Positions 15,815 through 26,900 of a DNA stretch of 33,070 nucleotides are shown here, piece after piece. A program made the position numbers and the translations under genes. This DNA comes from Gemmatimonadota bacterium (GTDB lineage Bacteria > JBHIER01 > G020348925): NCBI GenBank assembly GCA_020348925.1, contig CP070758.1, positions 4,683,224 through 4,716,293 on the forward strand, read 5' to 3'. Below the pieces are notes generated by a model. It made no database searches, was not told the origin of the DNA, and worked only from the letters and a program-made list of their open reading frames with translations. The first letter of the stretch is position 1; each line of letters opens with the position of its first letter.

Positions 15815-16312
15815 CGTGATTGATCCTTTCATCTCTCGATCATTTCAATATTCATGAGTTCTTCTCTTGACAATACTTTCAGTTTCTAACGGATTCCCTG
15901 AAACGCTCTCTTCATCATTGGATTTTTAAACATTAGACATTTCCTCATATAAGTGTGTTTCATTGGTCTGTAAAATAAAACCAATAGAGATTGAGCAGGA
16001 TATGTATCTTGTGTGAGATGGAAAGGGATATACATCCCTCAATGATTTTCGTCCAGCATACATATACTGGACAATCAAGTTTTCAATTAATGTGCTTCAT
16101 TGAATAGTGAAATAAGGACACACTTTTTTCAATCTCGATGTAATGAATACTATGAAATTGAACGGTAGATTGCAGATACATTTCAGATGTGTGGCATGTC
16201 GTTTACTTAGATAATAGGAGACTCCTTCAAGACAATGCTGTAAAATTTTTGTAGACTTTTTCTCCGGTTTTTACGTTTATATTAGTAAAAGTTATAATAA
16301 AAGGTCCTGTTT
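15815..16312. other. Divergent intergenic region upstream of the hydrolase and ECF sigma genes
   Basis: About 500 AT-rich bases hold no gene. The stretch contains copy 1 of a two-copy hairpin element (16024-16077, separate entry). A perfect TATAAT (16293-16298) stands 17 bases after TTTACG just before the sigma gene. The latter pair is a weak promoter candidate because the transcript would start within about ten bases of the start codon. Confidence 0.45.
16024..16077 (+). repeat. Hairpin element, copy 1 of 2
   Basis: AGGGATATACATCCCT is followed after 11 bases by GTCCAG-CATACATATA-CTGGAC-AATCA. The same arrangement occurs on the minus strand at 20718-20770 with a different stem sequence but an identical CATACATATA loop. 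A small self-complementary GGGAT-ATAC-ATCCC also forms at its left end. See the finding on covariation. Confidence 0.6.
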
Positions 16313-16873
16313 ATGAATGAAGATGTTCTCATCCTACTAGCCAAAGACGGCAGCGAATCAGCATTTCGTTCCCTGTACGAACGATTCCGCGAGCCCATCT
16401 ACCTCCTTGCTTATCGCTACACCCGCAACCGTGAGGAAGCCGAGGATATTCTTCAGGAGACATTTATTAAAGCCTTCAGGCACATAGATTCTTTTCGCAA
16501 TGAGCGGGACGGCAGGTTTCAGGCCTGGCTGCAGCGTATCTGCGTGAACAATTCTATCAGCCATTTGAGGAAGACGAAACGGCGAAGAGACAATTCCCTC
16601 TCCCTGGCGGACATCCAGACAGAACCAACAGCCAAGAATTCATCGCCCGAGGAGAAGATGGAACATCAGCACGTCCTGATCCTTGTGGAGCAGGCTGTGA
16701 ACCGTCTGTCGTCCAAGCAGAAGGTTATTTTTGACCTGCGTTACAACCAGCACAAGACTATCCGCTCGATTGCCAATCTTCTTGGATCGAGTGAAAGTAA
16801 CGTGAAGACACAGCTTTCCCGCTCCGTGAAAAAACTGAGGAAGTCCCTCAAACCCTTATGGGAGGAAACATGA
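16313..16873 (+). CDS. ECF-family RNA polymerase sigma factor (sigma-70 group 4)
   Basis: The 186-residue protein has only the two domains of extracytoplasmic-function sigma factors. Sigma region 2 (about residues 10-85) includes the RNREEAEDILQETFIKAF core-binding/-10 recognition block and FQAWLQRICVNN. Sigma region 4 (about 125-180) includes LSSKQKVIFDLRYNQHKTIRSIANLL and the helix-turn-helix GSSESNVKTQLSRSVKKLR that reads the -35 element. A weak AAAGGT SD precedes the ATG. Its stop overlaps the start of the anti-sigma gene (ATGA), so the two are translationally coupled. It is expected to be held inactive at the membrane by that anti-sigma factor. The target genes are unknown, but the downstream exported protein is a likely one. 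Confidence 0.95.
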   Translation: MNEDVLILLAKDGSESAFRSLYERFREPIYLLAYRYTRNREEAEDILQETFIKAFRHIDSFRNERDGRFQAWLQRICVNNSISHLRKTKRRRDNSLSLADIQTEPTAKNSSPEEKMEHQHVLILVEQAVNRLSSKQKVIFDLRYNQHKTIRSIANLLGSSESNVKTQLSRSVKKLRKSLKPLWEET

Positions 16874-17583
16874 ACTGCGGAGAATTTAAAGAGCTGCTCA
16901 TAATCCGCCTCTGCGGTCGCCTCACGAAAGTACAGAAAAACTTCCTGGAGGAACATGCGGTGTCTTGTCCTGCCTGTGCCCGGCTGGTGGATAGAGTCAA
17001 ATCAATGCCTGTCAATGAACCTGCCGGGGAAGTCCCAAGACCCGACTGGGAGGTCTCGTGGCACATCATTCGTGATCGCTCGCTGAAACGCAAAGGGCGC
17101 CTGCCGTTGTTCCTTACGTCAAGACGGTTTGCCCTAATTGCGGCCGCCGTGATCGTCGCGTTCGTCCTCGGAATAGTTGCTGAACGATCGGTCTTTTTTC
17201 CCACGACGGCTCCACTTCCACTGAAAGCGGAGCAACCACACGAGAGCGTTGCGTCCATCGCCGCTTACACCGAGACCATCGAACCACTATTGATCGATTT
17301 CATGAACCGCGGTGCCCAACCAACTCCTGGCGAGATAACGGAACTTACCAACCGCGTCATTGCCGATATGCTTTCGCAAACGCGACTCCTGAAATTCGCG
17401 GCAGCGCGATACGGAGACGGAAATCTGTACCAGCTTCTGGACGATGTCGAGCTGGTACTCATCTCGATCTCGAATCTGGGCGGCCAGAACGGCAACATCA
17501 CCGCCCAACTGAACCACTTCATTCGTAACAAATCGCTACTATTCCGGCTCAGACAGTTGCCGAGAGAAAACGAACCAATTTAA
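16870..17583 (+). CDS. Zinc-type (ZAS-like) membrane anti-sigma factor
   Basis: The ATG at 16870 overlaps the sigma factor's TGA (ATGA) and follows a GGGAGGAA SD; an in-frame ATG at 16858 would overlap it further and has no better signal. The 237-residue protein has Cys3 and the H-x3-C-x2-C zinc motif (His29, Cys33, Cys36; EEHAVSCPAC) at its N-terminus, which binds the sigma factor. A single transmembrane segment follows (RFALIAAAVIVAFVLGIVA, about residues 86-104). The C-terminal part of about 130 residues would lie outside the membrane and is largely helical (ITELTNRVIADMLSQ, YQLLDDVELVLISISNL). That part resembles no domain I recognise and presumably senses a signal or triggers regulated proteolysis. 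Confidence 0.88.
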   Translation: MNCGEFKELLIIRLCGRLTKVQKNFLEEHAVSCPACARLVDRVKSMPVNEPAGEVPRPDWEVSWHIIRDRSLKRKGRLPLFLTSRRFALIAAAVIVAFVLGIVAERSVFFPTTAPLPLKAEQPHESVASIAAYTETIEPLLIDFMNRGAQPTPGEITELTNRVIADMLSQTRLLKFAAARYGDGNLYQLLDDVELVLISISNLGGQNGNITAQLNHFIRNKSLLFRLRQLPRENEPI

Positions 17584-17596
17584 ATGGAGGGCGAAA

Positions 17597-19087
17597 ATGA
17601 GAAGCATACTATTCCTAACGGTCGGACTCATCATACTACTCAACAGTGTATCCTTCGCCGGATCTTATTACGGCGATACGGAAACAGAATTCTTTCTCAA
17701 GGCCAAAGAGTTCGCTTTCGAAAGAAAATGGGAACAGGCCCGGGCCAGACTTGAGGAATATTTGAACCGATACCCCTCAGGCCAGTTTGAGGCGGAAGCG
17801 TACTACTGGCTGGCTCGAAGCTTGAATCAACTCTCTGATGAAGTAAAACAGGCAGACGACATGGTCCGGTTGAAAGAACGTGCCATTGAGAATCTCAATA
17901 GTCTCTTCGAGCGCCATCCCGACAGCATTTGGCAGGACGACGCCAAGGTACTCAGGATCAAAATTGCGTCTGCGCTCGCCCTGCTGGGACGGACGCAGTA
18001 TAAGAAGTATATTGAAGAGGTCGTCTCGGATCAGGACGGGGGAGATCCGGACTTGTTGATGGCCGCGCTCGAAGCACTGACCGATCTGGAACCTGAGGCG
18101 GCCCTGCCTTTGATTGAGGACGTTTTGAATACTCAGGACGATGCGGCGATCCGTAAACAAGCATTGTTTCTTCTCGGAGCGTATCACGGACAGGCGGGAC
18201 TATCCATCCTGCATCGCGTGGAGACCTCAGATCCCGACGAATCCGTCCGAAAAGAGGCGGCCTTATGGCAGAAACAAATCGAAATGGAGTCGATTCCGGT
18301 TCAACTGAACTACTACGGCTACACCGCCCGTCTCAAGAAGGATCGCCATCTCATACAGGAGGGCACATTACACGTGTATGATTTTCCCGCTCTCCGTTCT
18401 CCCGGCAGTAAGAAGGTCGAAAAAGAGATTAAAAAACTCTTTAACGGGAAGCTTTCCGACGTCAAGTTCACCATGGGATTGATCGGCGGCATCGAATCCC
18501 AGCGGATCTTGCGCTCACAGGGATTATCTCTGCACGTCACGCACAACCTTCGGGGATTCAAGGTAGAGATTCCCGAAGATGCTATCAAGAAGGATTACTT
18601 CCGAGTTCAAGGAACGGTGAGTTTCTTCGACACGTATCGAAATAAGGAGCACTTGAAGGATTTCGCCGTAAACGAGGACCACGGTCAGCTGATGGCAATG
18701 CGGTATGGCGAAGACGTTGCCATCCTGGTGCTGCAGTTCGAATCACTCGAGGAACCTCTGGACGTCTCGGAGGAGCCTGTTTATCACACGAAGTTCACGA
18801 ACGTATTTGGAGCCCTCGTCCATTCGTCCCGGCAATCCTGGAACCCGGAGGAGATGCTTGGAGCGGTGCAGGGATCGGTCGTTGAATACGGTCGCGCCAA
18901 AGCCGAGATTCCGGGGAAGGAGGGCAAGTGGATCCTCATAGGTGACATTCAGCTTCATAGTAAGGAGCACCTCTTCATCGGTCGCGGTGCCGTTCTGTAT
19001 GACCCAAAGCAGAACGTTGTGGCGGAAGCGTCCGAAATCATCGTACCCTCCGATGCACCGGAAAAGTACGAGATCAAAAATAAATGA
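17597..19087 (+). CDS. Exported TPR/HEAT-repeat protein in the sigma/anti-sigma operon
   Basis: The 496-residue protein follows the anti-sigma gene after 13 bases with a GGAGG SD, so it is the third gene of the operon. Residues 1-21 are a signal peptide (MRSILFLTVGLIILLNSVSFA). Residues about 28-110 form TPR-like helices (FFLKAKEFAFERKWEQARAR, LNRYPSGQFEAEAYYWLARS). Residues about 135-225 form HEAT-like repeats (ALEALTDLEPEAALPLIEDV, AIRKQALFLLGAYHGQAGLS). The remaining ~270 residues are rich in predicted beta strands and match no family I know. A periplasmic or outer-membrane-associated scaffold, perhaps linked to the stress sensed by the anti-sigma factor, is plausible. This is inference from position only. 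Confidence 0.8.
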   Translation: MRSILFLTVGLIILLNSVSFAGSYYGDTETEFFLKAKEFAFERKWEQARARLEEYLNRYPSGQFEAEAYYWLARSLNQLSDEVKQADDMVRLKERAIENLNSLFERHPDSIWQDDAKVLRIKIASALALLGRTQYKKYIEEVVSDQDGGDPDLLMAALEALTDLEPEAALPLIEDVLNTQDDAAIRKQALFLLGAYHGQAGLSILHRVETSDPDESVRKEAALWQKQIEMESIPVQLNYYGYTARLKKDRHLIQEGTLHVYDFPALRSPGSKKVEKEIKKLFNGKLSDVKFTMGLIGGIESQRILRSQGLSLHVTHNLRGFKVEIPEDAIKKDYFRVQGTVSFFDTYRNKEHLKDFAVNEDHGQLMAMRYGEDVAILVLQFESLEEPLDVSEEPVYHTKFTNVFGALVHSSRQSWNPEEMLGAVQGSVVEYGRAKAEIPGKEGKWILIGDIQLHSKEHLFIGRGAVLYDPKQNVVAEASEIIVPSDAPEKYEIKNK

Positions 19088-19234
19088 ACACCGACCCGAT
19101 CATCCTCTATGTATCCAATGCGGGGGATGGAAAGGAGTATACGTTTTTCAAACTTGATCTTTTTTAATTCATGTCAAGATTAAAGAAAAAAATGTGGCTT
19201 ACGACTGAGGACAAGCTCGAAGCATTCGGATCTT

Positions 19235-20692
19235 TCATCTCCTTCTCTGCAGCGAATACCCCGGCATAATGATTCCGGACACCTCTCTATCGTCATTTTC
19301 TTCGAACCTGATCAGCTCGCCCTCCTGCCACTGATCGAGCATTTTAAACGTGTTCCCCGAAACATATTTGAGCCTGACCCGATCCCCCCACGGATCATCA
19401 CTTGCGGGATCGACAAGGGACAATTCGTTGTTGAGCAGCATGACATGCATGACGGAACCATCGCTCCATTCGTAGGCTCCAACAAATCTCATCCAGGACG
19501 GATCGGCTTGAGCCGGTTTTTCTTCGGTTTCAGTAGCCTTCCTGACAACCGGAGCAATAAGTGTCCAGGCTTGTGCTGTAATCTCTCCCGGCTTACCGTC
19601 ATCACCATTTGTCAAGACAACAACACCGAATTTATCGGCAGGTGCAGCGGAAATCGCTGATTTAAATCCGGGCACAGAGCCCCCGTGTTGAATTCGTACC
19701 TGATCACTGACACGAGCCACACCCCATCCCAGACCGCGACCGCCATTCCAGTCATCATAAAGCCAGTGGGGGCGGTGCATCTCTTTCAGCGTGGATCCTT
19801 TCAGGATCTGGGCACCACCGGCGGCACCATCTCGAAACTGCAGCGATAAGAATTTAGCCAGATCCTCAACGGTAGAAGCCATATTTCCCGATGCGACCGC
19901 GGCCTTTTTGTCAAAGAAAGGTGCAATTTCTCTCGATCGTCCCGGTCTCCGTGAATAATATCCCGTTGCTAAATGAGACATTTCAGAAGACGGGGTGACC
20001 GATGTCGAGGTCATCCCCAGCGGGTTCAGAATATGGTTTGTCACGTACTTAGCGTACGATTGGCCAGAGACAGCCTCAACGACAAAACCTAAAACATTGA
20101 AAGCGACGTTTGAATACTTGAATTTCGACTCACGCGGAAGGATCGTCGAAGACTCCTGGAACATCTTGATCAACGTTTCTCGATCCGGGAACTCCATGTC
20201 ATCCCAATAGAGCGCCTCGAACTCGCGGGGCAGGCCGGATGAATGTGTCAGAAGATGGCGAATGGTGATGATCGGGCTGTCGCTGTACTCATCATTCAGA
20301 TGAAACCAATCAAGATGTTTTGCCACCGGATCATCCAATTGCAATTTTCCCGCATCGCGAAGATGAAGTATGGCCGTTGCGGTGAAAAGTTTCGTCAGCG
20401 ACGCAATCCGGTATGCGGTCGATGGCGTAGCAGGTGTTTTTCTTTCAAGATTGGCATAGCCGTACCCTTTCGCCCAGATAAGGTCCTGATCGTAAACAAT
20501 GCCGACAGACACGCCGGGCAGTTCTTCCTGATACAGCCGGTGCTGAACCCAGGCATCGAACACATCGATCGCTGCTTGCACCTCGGGATTATCCAGGACT
20601 GATTCCGACTCAGACCAAACAGTCCACAAACCTGAAACGGCAAAGAAAATGGTCACTACAACTATCGTACTTTGTAACTTTCTACATCGCAT
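19235..20692 (-). CDS. Exported serine hydrolase of the class C beta-lactamase/D-Ala-D-Ala carboxypeptidase fold
   Basis: The 485-residue protein begins with a hydrophobic export signal (residues about 8-28). It carries the three active-site motifs of the beta-lactamase PF00144 family: S-x-x-K (Ser98-Leu-Thr-Lys101), Y-S-N (Tyr193-Ser194-Asn195), and HGG (His336) in place of KTG. ITIRHLLTHSSGLP and GFVVEAVSGQSYAKYV are typical of this group. Most such proteins are esterases, peptidases or peptide amidases rather than antibiotic-resistance enzymes, so resistance should not be inferred. The C-terminal ~90 residues form an extra beta-rich domain (FVGAYEWSDGSVMHV...) as in DUF3471-type fusions. 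An AAAGGAG SD precedes the ATG. Copy 2 of the hairpin element lies in its leader. Confidence 0.92.
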   Translation of the reverse strand: MRCRKLQSTIVVVTIFFAVSGLWTVWSESESVLDNPEVQAAIDVFDAWVQHRLYQEELPGVSVGIVYDQDLIWAKGYGYANLERKTPATPSTAYRIASLTKLFTATAILHLRDAGKLQLDDPVAKHLDWFHLNDEYSDSPIITIRHLLTHSSGLPREFEALYWDDMEFPDRETLIKMFQESSTILPRESKFKYSNVAFNVLGFVVEAVSGQSYAKYVTNHILNPLGMTSTSVTPSSEMSHLATGYYSRRPGRSREIAPFFDKKAAVASGNMASTVEDLAKFLSLQFRDGAAGGAQILKGSTLKEMHRPHWLYDDWNGGRGLGWGVARVSDQVRIQHGGSVPGFKSAISAAPADKFGVVVLTNGDDGKPGEITAQAWTLIAPVVRKATETEEKPAQADPSWMRFVGAYEWSDGSVMHVMLLNNELSLVDPASDDPWGDRVRLKYVSGNTFKMLDQWQEGELIRFEENDDREVSGIIMPGYSLQRRR

Positions 20693-20717
20693 TTTTGGCT
20701 CCTTTGTCTTTTATCCC

Positions 20718-20770
20718 TGATCGCCCGATATATGTATGCCGGGCAAAAAGTGGTACAGGGATATATATCT
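20718..20770 (-). repeat. Hairpin element, copy 2 of 2, in the leader of the beta-lactamase-fold gene
   Basis: On the minus strand the copy reads ATATATATCCCT, a 12-base spacer, GCCCGG-CATACATATA-TCGGGC, then GATCA. It ends about 25 bases before the start codon at 20692. It matches copy 1 at 16024-16077 in layout and loop, while the stem bases differ in a paired way. Confidence 0.6.
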
Positions 20771-20826
20771 CTACTCCGTTCTTTTTTAGGAGCTTCCAAG
20801 GGAAATTCCTCTGCAAGTAAGTTAAG

Positions 20827-20915
20827 CGAATATTAACACCTACATCCCTGTTTATAATAAAAGCTCATCAAACTTCCCATGCCTTGAAAGAAAAAGACTG
20901 GCAGAAAGTGTCTTT
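20827..20915 (+). repeat. Dispersed repeat, copy A of 3
   Basis: This copy reads ATTAACACCTACATC, then AAACTTCCCATGCCTTGAAAG, and ends GAAAGTGTC. It aligns over about 85 bases with copy B at 26115-26202 and copy C at 26823-26900, all in the same orientation. It lies just downstream of the orphan antitoxin gene. Confidence 0.7.
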
Positions 20916-21325: not shown

Positions 21326-21361
21326 GTTTTTAAAAGAGATGCTTTCCATTGCACGTCTCAT

Positions 21362-21563
21362 TCGGGGACACCATACTCATTTTCAAACCATCTTGCACTT
21401 TATCTCTCCCCTTGAGGGGAGACAAAGAGGGGTGTTCTCCACTGGATTCGAAAGCACATTTAAAACTCATTGTTAATACCTCAAAATCAACTCAAATTCC
21501 TATTCACATAAAAATTGGATCGAAGACTACTCAAAGGCAAATAAACAGGTATGGTGTCCCCGA
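21362..21563. mobile_element. MITE-like element with 15-bp perfect terminal inverted repeats
   Basis: TCGGGGACACCATAC (21362-21376) and its exact complement GTATGGTGTCCCCGA (21549-21563) bound 202 bases with no plausible protein. The left part (21368-21471) shares a pattern with 25718-25792. The GGGGACACC end sequence recurs at 25617, 26058 and (inverted) 26190. This fits a non-autonomous element or a remnant of IS ends; no target-site duplication was recognised. Confidence 0.55.
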
Positions 21564-25676: not shown

Positions 25677-25717
25677 TTGATAATGTTGGATACATACAGT
25701 GTGCCAGAAATTCTGAA

Positions 25718-25792
25718 ACACCATACTCATTTCGATATCGTCTCGCACTTCAGCCTTCCCCTTGATTCGATGGTACATTCAAAAAACTCATT
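25718..25792. repeat. Diverged second copy of the inner part of the 21362-21563 element
   Basis: ACACCATACTCATTTC ... TCGCACTT ... CCCCTTGA ... GATTCGA ... AAAACTCATT follows the same order as 21368-21471 (ACACCATACTCATTTTC ... TTGCACTTT ... CCCCTTGA ... GATTCGA ... AAAACTCATT), with a shorter middle. It has lost the outer GGGG and any opposite end. Confidence 0.5.
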
Positions 25793-26063: not shown

Positions 26064-26114
26064 GGGACACCTTTTGCAACTGATTAGAGTATATATGAAT
26101 ACAAATATATTAGC

Positions 26115-26202
26115 CGATATCAACACCTACATCATCGTTTTTCTTAAAAGTGCATTAAACTTCCTGTGCCTTAAAAGGTAAAGACGAACAAAAGGTGTCC
26201 CC
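26115..26202 (+). repeat. Dispersed repeat, copy B of 3
   Basis: This copy reads ATCAACACCTACATCATCG, TTAAACTTCCTGTGCCTTAAAAG and ends AAAAGGTGTCCCC. It overlaps the last codons of the membrane-protein gene at 26171-26788 and shares its right end with the candidate IS segment. Confidence 0.7.
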
Positions 26203-26822: not shown

Positions 26823-26900
26823 CGCCTTCGTTATCGTTTTCTTAAAACCATAATAAACTTCCTATGCCTTAAAAGATAATAACTTAAAAAAAGTGTCCCT
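26823..26900 (+). repeat. Dispersed repeat, copy C of 3
   Basis: This copy reads ATCGTTTTCTTAAAA, AATAAACTTCCTATGCCTTAAAAG and ends AAAAGTGTCCCT. It is a direct repeat of copy B on the other side of the membrane-protein gene, slightly shorter at its left end. Confidence 0.7.

Follow-up and report, generated by a model that had tools for sequence, protein, structure and literature searches.

A probable REPIN-like family of GATC-tagged inverted palindromes in a Gemmatimonadota genome

INTRODUCTION

The closest described relatives of the repeats treated here are the repetitive extragenic palindromic (REP) doublets known as REPINs (REP doublets forming hairpins) or BIMEs (bacterial interspersed mosaic elements), in which related palindromes stand inverted to each other within about 100 bp, which lie mostly between genes, and which can form either a single long hairpin or several separate ones (PMC3116915). 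In Pseudomonas, such doublets are clearly better conserved than singlets (PMC3116915). GTAG/GTGG and CGTC are the tags described for REP super-families, in which heterodimers, small stem-loops inside the spacer, and dimers whose tags are outside (HH type) have been described as well (PMC3733652). The cleavage dinucleotide reported for REPs is CT (PMC8266576), and genes for REP-associated tyrosine transposases (RAYTs) with flanking terminal inverted repeats have GGGGWSAS ends (PMC3733652). Orphan families without a transposase are known, since the CGTC families have no dedicated one (PMC3733652). Here, we describe a family of palindromic repeats in a Gemmatimonadota bacterium (GenBank assembly GCA_020348925.1), represented by two copies (copies 1 and 2) in a stretch of 33,070 nucleotides of contig CP070758.1 (positions 4,683,224 to 4,716,293, forward strand), called the window throughout. 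It is probably a genome-specific REPIN-like family, composed of inverted related palindromes with a GATC tag outside each foot and a third palindrome in the spacer, that was spread by a REP-type Y1 transposase since lost or decayed; mobile DNA of some age is thus a much likelier identity for it than a switch controlling genes.

RESULTS

The type 1 unit of the family measures 92 to 98 bp and consists of GATCGCACAGGATATGTATCCTGTGCG (palindrome A), a spacer, GGGATATATATCCC (B), a second spacer, and CGCCCRGCATACATATACYGGGCGATCAAG (C), B being a small central palindrome inside the spacer between A and C. Palindrome C, when reversed, resembles A as a relative, which makes the unit a doublet of a single palindrome class in inverted arrangement, and GATC stands outside both feet. 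Two more classes have the right half in common with it, as follows: type 2, which has another left arm and is exemplified by copy 2, and type 3, which measures 177 to 187 bp where both ends were located. Some variation was seen within these classes. The type 2 copies L056 and L057 are longer and contain extra sequence within the left half, which in L057 is bordered by short inverted repeats, and in a subfamily at L053 (~1534740) and L061 (~3043750), the palindrome is CAGGAGACATCTCCTG, then still GAACGATC.

The genome, one contig of 5,037,917 bases, was searched first with the loop and the third palindrome and afterward with two covariance models, R1 (10 seeds) and R2 (26 seeds), whose seeds were chosen by eye and both of which include the tag. 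R1 gave 32 matches at an E value of ≤1e-3, corresponding to 29 loci after removal of 3 mirror readings, and R2, which describes the palindromes, gave 47 matches at an E value of ≤0.05, corresponding to 44 units after removal of 3 mirror readings. Palindromes of 20 to 50 nt in many, mostly intergenic copies, as these 44 units are, make a REP family in the broad sense. Both window copies score high with R1 (73.2 bits for copy 1 and 71.3 bits for copy 2), but since both are among its ten seeds, independent support for them comes from the further genomic copies.

The 44 palindromes form 12 neighbor pairs within 250 bp, where 0.11 is expected at random and 2 was the maximum in 2000 simulations, and 10 of these 12 pairs are inverted with the tags outside; the doublets are thus mostly inverted, as in REPINs. 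At this threshold, the inverted pairs hold only 20 of the 44 units; further partners have degenerated or are of different left-arm types.

The family appears to be specific to this genome. R1 had no match at an E value of ≤0.01 in 58 other genomes, none of them of the same phylum, and exact patterns for palindrome C had no match in the genome_contigs and viral_contigs collections, from which records of the genome itself were possibly excluded. Among 385 other genomes, four gave one weak R1 match each (24 to 28.5 bits), and these were rejected, as the stretches inspected lacked palindrome C and held a B-like hairpin at best. In this search of 386 genomes, only 14 candidates were scored per genome, and diverged families might escape it.

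Both ends of the element are sharply bounded by the tag. At the right end, where 27 of the 31 units defined below were aligned, pairwise identity over G, A, T, and C is 0.93, 1.0, 1.0, and 0.86, drops to ~0.6 over AAG, and lies between 0.23 and 0.38 past GATCAAG; the four letters are present in 26, 27, 27, and 25 copies, respectively. At the left end (13 copies), the corresponding identities are 1.0, 0.85, 1.0, and 0.72, with the letters present in 13, 12, 13, and 11 copies, and identity outside is ~0.2 to 0.4, with the single exception of a G two bases ahead of GATC (0.59). A conserved tetranucleotide therefore stands at the hairpin foot, as in REPs, the presence of the tag in R1 and R2 favoring the recovery of tagged copies. 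The loop word alone, without the tag, occurs at 9 places, one of which is not an element; the other eight end in GATC (six), GATT (one), and AATC (one). The tag is preceded by CTT (CTTGATC). GATCAAG is often followed on its right by a stretch rich in GTAACCG (CGTCACCGTAACCGAAYGACGTAAC), as in L036, L042, L043, L055, and others. This stretch was rejected as a necessary component of the element, since five of its eight genomic places adjoin copies and the other three are loci without an R1 or R2 match.

No target-site duplication was seen in the 12 units compared, where direct duplications were not above those of shuffled flanks. This result bears on whether the units could be miniature inverted-repeat transposable elements, i.e., nonautonomous DNA transposons moved by a DDE transposase, whose terminal inverted repeats would be palindromic incidentally. 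The sizes of the units, their inverted ends, and the fact that these ends are common to two length classes fit such elements, but the lack of a duplication does not, and each end is itself a hairpin with a conserved unpaired tag outside. We consider this origin unlikely.

The outer palindromes covary. In 26 palindromes, 90.5% of the cells pair, and five pairs have changed on both sides in 31 cells, a number larger than that of the change events because classes A and C differ consistently at some of these cells; structures with slid partners reach at most 6 cells. The covariation score and the number of cells paired surpass all 500 shuffles. The paired stem changes that the first-pass annotation had read from two hairpins thus hold for the larger set. 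Template switching during replication tends to perfect palindromes and could produce paired changes with no selection implied, and A is indeed slightly closer to its own C than to other Cs (of 28 bases, 18.8 versus 18.2 agree; permutation p, 0.015), as concerted change would give. It leaves both the conserved tag outside the hairpin and the dispersal of the units unexplained, however, so that their spread would still need explaining, and it is a highly improbable source of the pattern.

Folding as single-stranded DNA was compared for nine sequences, of which eight beat their shuffles (z, −2.6 to −7.6), whereas a 77-base piece of copy 2 was no better than shuffles (z, −0.9). One long hairpin joining A with C is preferred in copy 1 of the window and in L047 and L049, and separate hairpins are preferred in five others.

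The genomic context was studied in 31 units, composed of the 29 R1 loci and two weaker ones (E values of 0.001 and 0.023), while one doubtful R1 match (1286255; E value of 0.015) was excluded. Gene calls are based on open reading frames (ORFs) only. Three of the 31 units have their midpoint inside an ORF of ≥150 amino acids, and a few element ends slightly overlap ORF ends. In 30 cases, the two neighboring genes share a strand 20 times and are divergent and convergent 5 times each. A downstream gene on the strand of the element is found in 17 units, or 18 with the inclusion of an ORF that overlaps the copy in L051, so that orientation relative to genes looks random and the consistent position and strand of a cis-regulatory RNA are lacking. 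A scan covered ten of these 17 same-strand proteins (nine or fewer as whole proteins, long ones being cut at 260 amino acids); nine of them are each of a different, unrelated kind, and the tenth had no match. Rfam gave no match in the window at the gathering score. Palindrome B of copy 1 coincides with a terminator-like site, but a role as terminator was rejected, as the frequency of such sites in the region matches that of shuffles (6 versus 5.7).

These data separate the three roles offered by the first-pass annotation, namely, an RNA regulatory leader, a regulator site, or a structured repeat. The last of these stands, with further covarying copies in the genome, whereas the placement of these copies relative to genes looks random, and an RNA leader or a regulator site is not supported as the function of the family. 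A transcribed leader, riboswitch, or attenuator acting on the downstream gene would agree with covarying stems and a conserved loop, with copy 2 lying directly ahead of a start codon, and with the terminator-like site in copy 1. It is nevertheless very unlikely given the strand counts, the absence of a common function among the downstream proteins scanned and of an Rfam family, the shuffle-like frequency of terminator-like sites, and the mirror symmetry of the units. The similar A+T core of the A, B, and C palindromes could suit a protein that organizes the chromosome (e.g., a nucleoid protein) or a regulator binding ATATGTAT-like palindromes. Against this, the conserved unit greatly exceeds the usual length of an operator, is sharply bounded, occurs in subfamilies with common halves, and shows no preferred gene context, which leaves little probability for a protein-binding site as the origin of the repeats; a host protein may use copies secondarily, after their spread.

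With respect to a mobilizing enzyme, the copy at 905152-905247 adjoins a truncated frame that aligns with the final 27 positions of the NCBIfam model for REP-associated tyrosine transposases. The remainder of that gene was not recognized by eye in the translation of ~700 bases on each side, and Pfam retrieved nothing convincing for the remnant (best E value, 0.098, to an unrelated DUF). Used as a query, the remnant had one partial match (36 residues) on a Chloroflexi metagenome-assembled genome contig, which was set aside, there being no R2 palindrome. Two intact Y1 transposase genes, L032 and L033, and one fragment, L079, are present in the genome (Table 1). Each intact gene lies between inverted repeats, which start with GGGGTCAGGCATCAG and GGGGTCACATC and are unrelated to the present repeats, and around L033, pieces of its inverted-repeat end recur several times.

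In the window, the two hairpins reported by the first-pass annotation are present in the letters with their common loop, the preceding ATCCCT and spacer, their different but paired stems, and their (A/G)ATCA ends. Copy 1 reads ATCCCT, spacer, GTCCAG-CATACATATA-CTGGAC, and AATCA, and copy 2, on the minus strand, reads ATCCCT, spacer, GCCCGG-CATACATATA-TCGGGC, and GATCA, with G-T as the innermost stem pair. Together, they form the longest inverted-repeat pair among those listed for the window (32 nt, 78%). With at most one mismatch allowed, GCATACATATA occurs twice in the window, both times exactly, against an expectation of 0.18 (two occurrences were reached in 2 of 100 shuffles).

Several parts of the units had been overlooked, as follows: ATCCCT is, in both copies, the right arm of palindrome B; copy 1 also carries palindrome A, an inverted relative of the reported hairpin; and the conserved end of the element is GATC. 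The two tags of copy 1 both read GATT outward-in, whereas the left tag of copy 2, whose left end was positioned by alignment, has decayed to ACTT. A third copy had also been missed; it reaches a local alignment score of 48, compared with at most 29 in 60 block-shuffled windows, and is below detection by R1 (E value of ≤0.1) and R2 (E value of ≤1).

Copy 1 lies between an ORF for an extracytoplasmic function (ECF) sigma factor, 234 bases away, and a divergent hydrolase ORF, 154 bases away. Copy 2 precedes the beta-lactamase-fold gene, and because it ends 23 bases before the ATG, an effect on this gene is possible.

Table 1. Repeat units and Y1 transposase genes (repeat units in window positions; transposase genes in contig positions)
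Feature	Position	Strand	Basis and remarks
Copy 1, complete type 1 unit (palindromes A, B, C)	15986..16079	+	Tags GATT left, AATC right; R1 match 16024-16079, R2 matches
Palindrome A of copy 1 (related to C, inverted)	15986..16019	+	R2 match, 31.7 bits
Central palindrome B of copy 1, GGGATATACATCCC	16025..16038	+	Letters; part of R1
Palindrome C of copy 1 with outer tag (hairpin first reported)	16046..16079	-	R2, 49 bits
Third copy, decayed truncated type 1 (end of A, spacer, start of B)	19108..19141	+	Local alignment
Copy 2, type 2 unit (same B and C, other left arm, AGGAATTTCCCTTGGAAGCTCCT)	20716..20818	-	R1 20716-20772, R2 20716-20749, type 2 alignment
Intact Y1 transposase gene (L032)	4954229-4954630		Above family cut-off
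Intact Y1 transposase gene (L033)	1246953-1247357		Above Pfam cut-off, below NCBIfam cut-off
Y1 transposase fragment (L079)	4854006-4854167		

The window contains other repeats as well. A different dispersed repeat (AAACTTCC..TGCCTT.AAAG) of 63 to 88 nt is found at 20825-20912, 26112-26199, and 26837-26899 (71 to 79% alike), with one copy directly upstream of copy 2, and a 56-nt direct repeat containing ACACCATACTCATTT occurs at 21360-21415 and 25710-25765 (77% alike).

DISCUSSION

The dispersal of the units, their organization as inverted doublets, the tag at the foot, the absence of a target duplication, and the mostly intergenic location together give the anatomy of a REP doublet (REPIN, BIME). 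Most probably, such units spread through the genome in the form of single-stranded hairpins copied by a Y1 (HUH) transposase of the REP type, which would have recognized the hairpin together with the tag and left no target duplication behind. The enzyme would since have been lost or reduced to a remnant, with the remaining copies drifting between genes.

Several observations weigh against this interpretation. The 20 units in the ten inverted pairs average 38.9 bits, compared with 36.7 bits for the other 24 (model bits, not pairwise identity), and a conservation advantage of doublets is thus not demonstrated; they are hardly better conserved than the rest, unlike in Pseudomonas (PMC3116915). 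Two of the five covariation measures stay within the shuffles (covarying pairs were reached by 60 of 500 and pair types by 445 of 500), and palindrome B shows no covariation. The match of the truncated frame to the transposase model is weak (19.6 bits, with a cut-off of 80; E value of 6.6e-4). No cognate transposase was found, L032, L033, and L079 having no palindromes of the family within ~1.5 kb. Finally, the tag is neither GTAG/GTGG nor CGTC, the tags of the two super-families, which is why we call the family REPIN-like with a new tag and place it in neither of them.

GATC does not occur in the text of PMC3733652 and PMC6006769, and a literature search combining repetitive extragenic palindromic, tetranucleotide, and GATC found no paper. 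It is conceivable, although doubtful, that the family represents a third tagged REP-like super-family, with a self-complementary GATC tag and inverted doublets around a third palindrome. As such a tag is identical on both strands, a dedicated enzyme could then engage either strand, unlike in GTAG systems.

As REPIN-like repeats, the units would extend this type of element to a further lineage, as seen in one genome, and beyond the tags of the two super-families described so far, and they would provide a case of a repeat family seemingly outliving its transposase. They also indicate that covarying hairpins upstream of genes are not necessarily riboregulators.

In comparison with REPINs and BIMEs, the family is smaller, with ~31 units versus hundreds, has a third palindrome in the spacer and a GATC tag, and no RAYT carrying its palindromes was found (PMC3116915). 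Unlike in the TnpAREP/RAYT REPtrons, no intact RAYT flanked by the family was found (PMC8266576, PMC6006769). The two intact Y1 transposases of the genome are RAYTs of the sort with long terminal inverted repeats, and their GGGGTCAG- and GGGGTCAC-type ends fit GGGGWSAS (PMC3733652). The likenesses are in the architecture of the units. Like REPINs and BIMEs, they consist of inverted palindromes within ~100 bp, lie mostly between genes, and show both modes of folding (PMC3116915). With the GTAG and CGTC super-families, they share a short palindrome with a conserved tetranucleotide at its foot; dimers with tags outside are known from these super-families too, and the CGTC families resemble the present one in having no dedicated transposase (PMC3733652). 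As in the TnpAREP/RAYT REPtrons, CT stands immediately 5′ of the tag and a truncated REP-transposase-like frame adjoins one copy (PMC8266576, PMC6006769).

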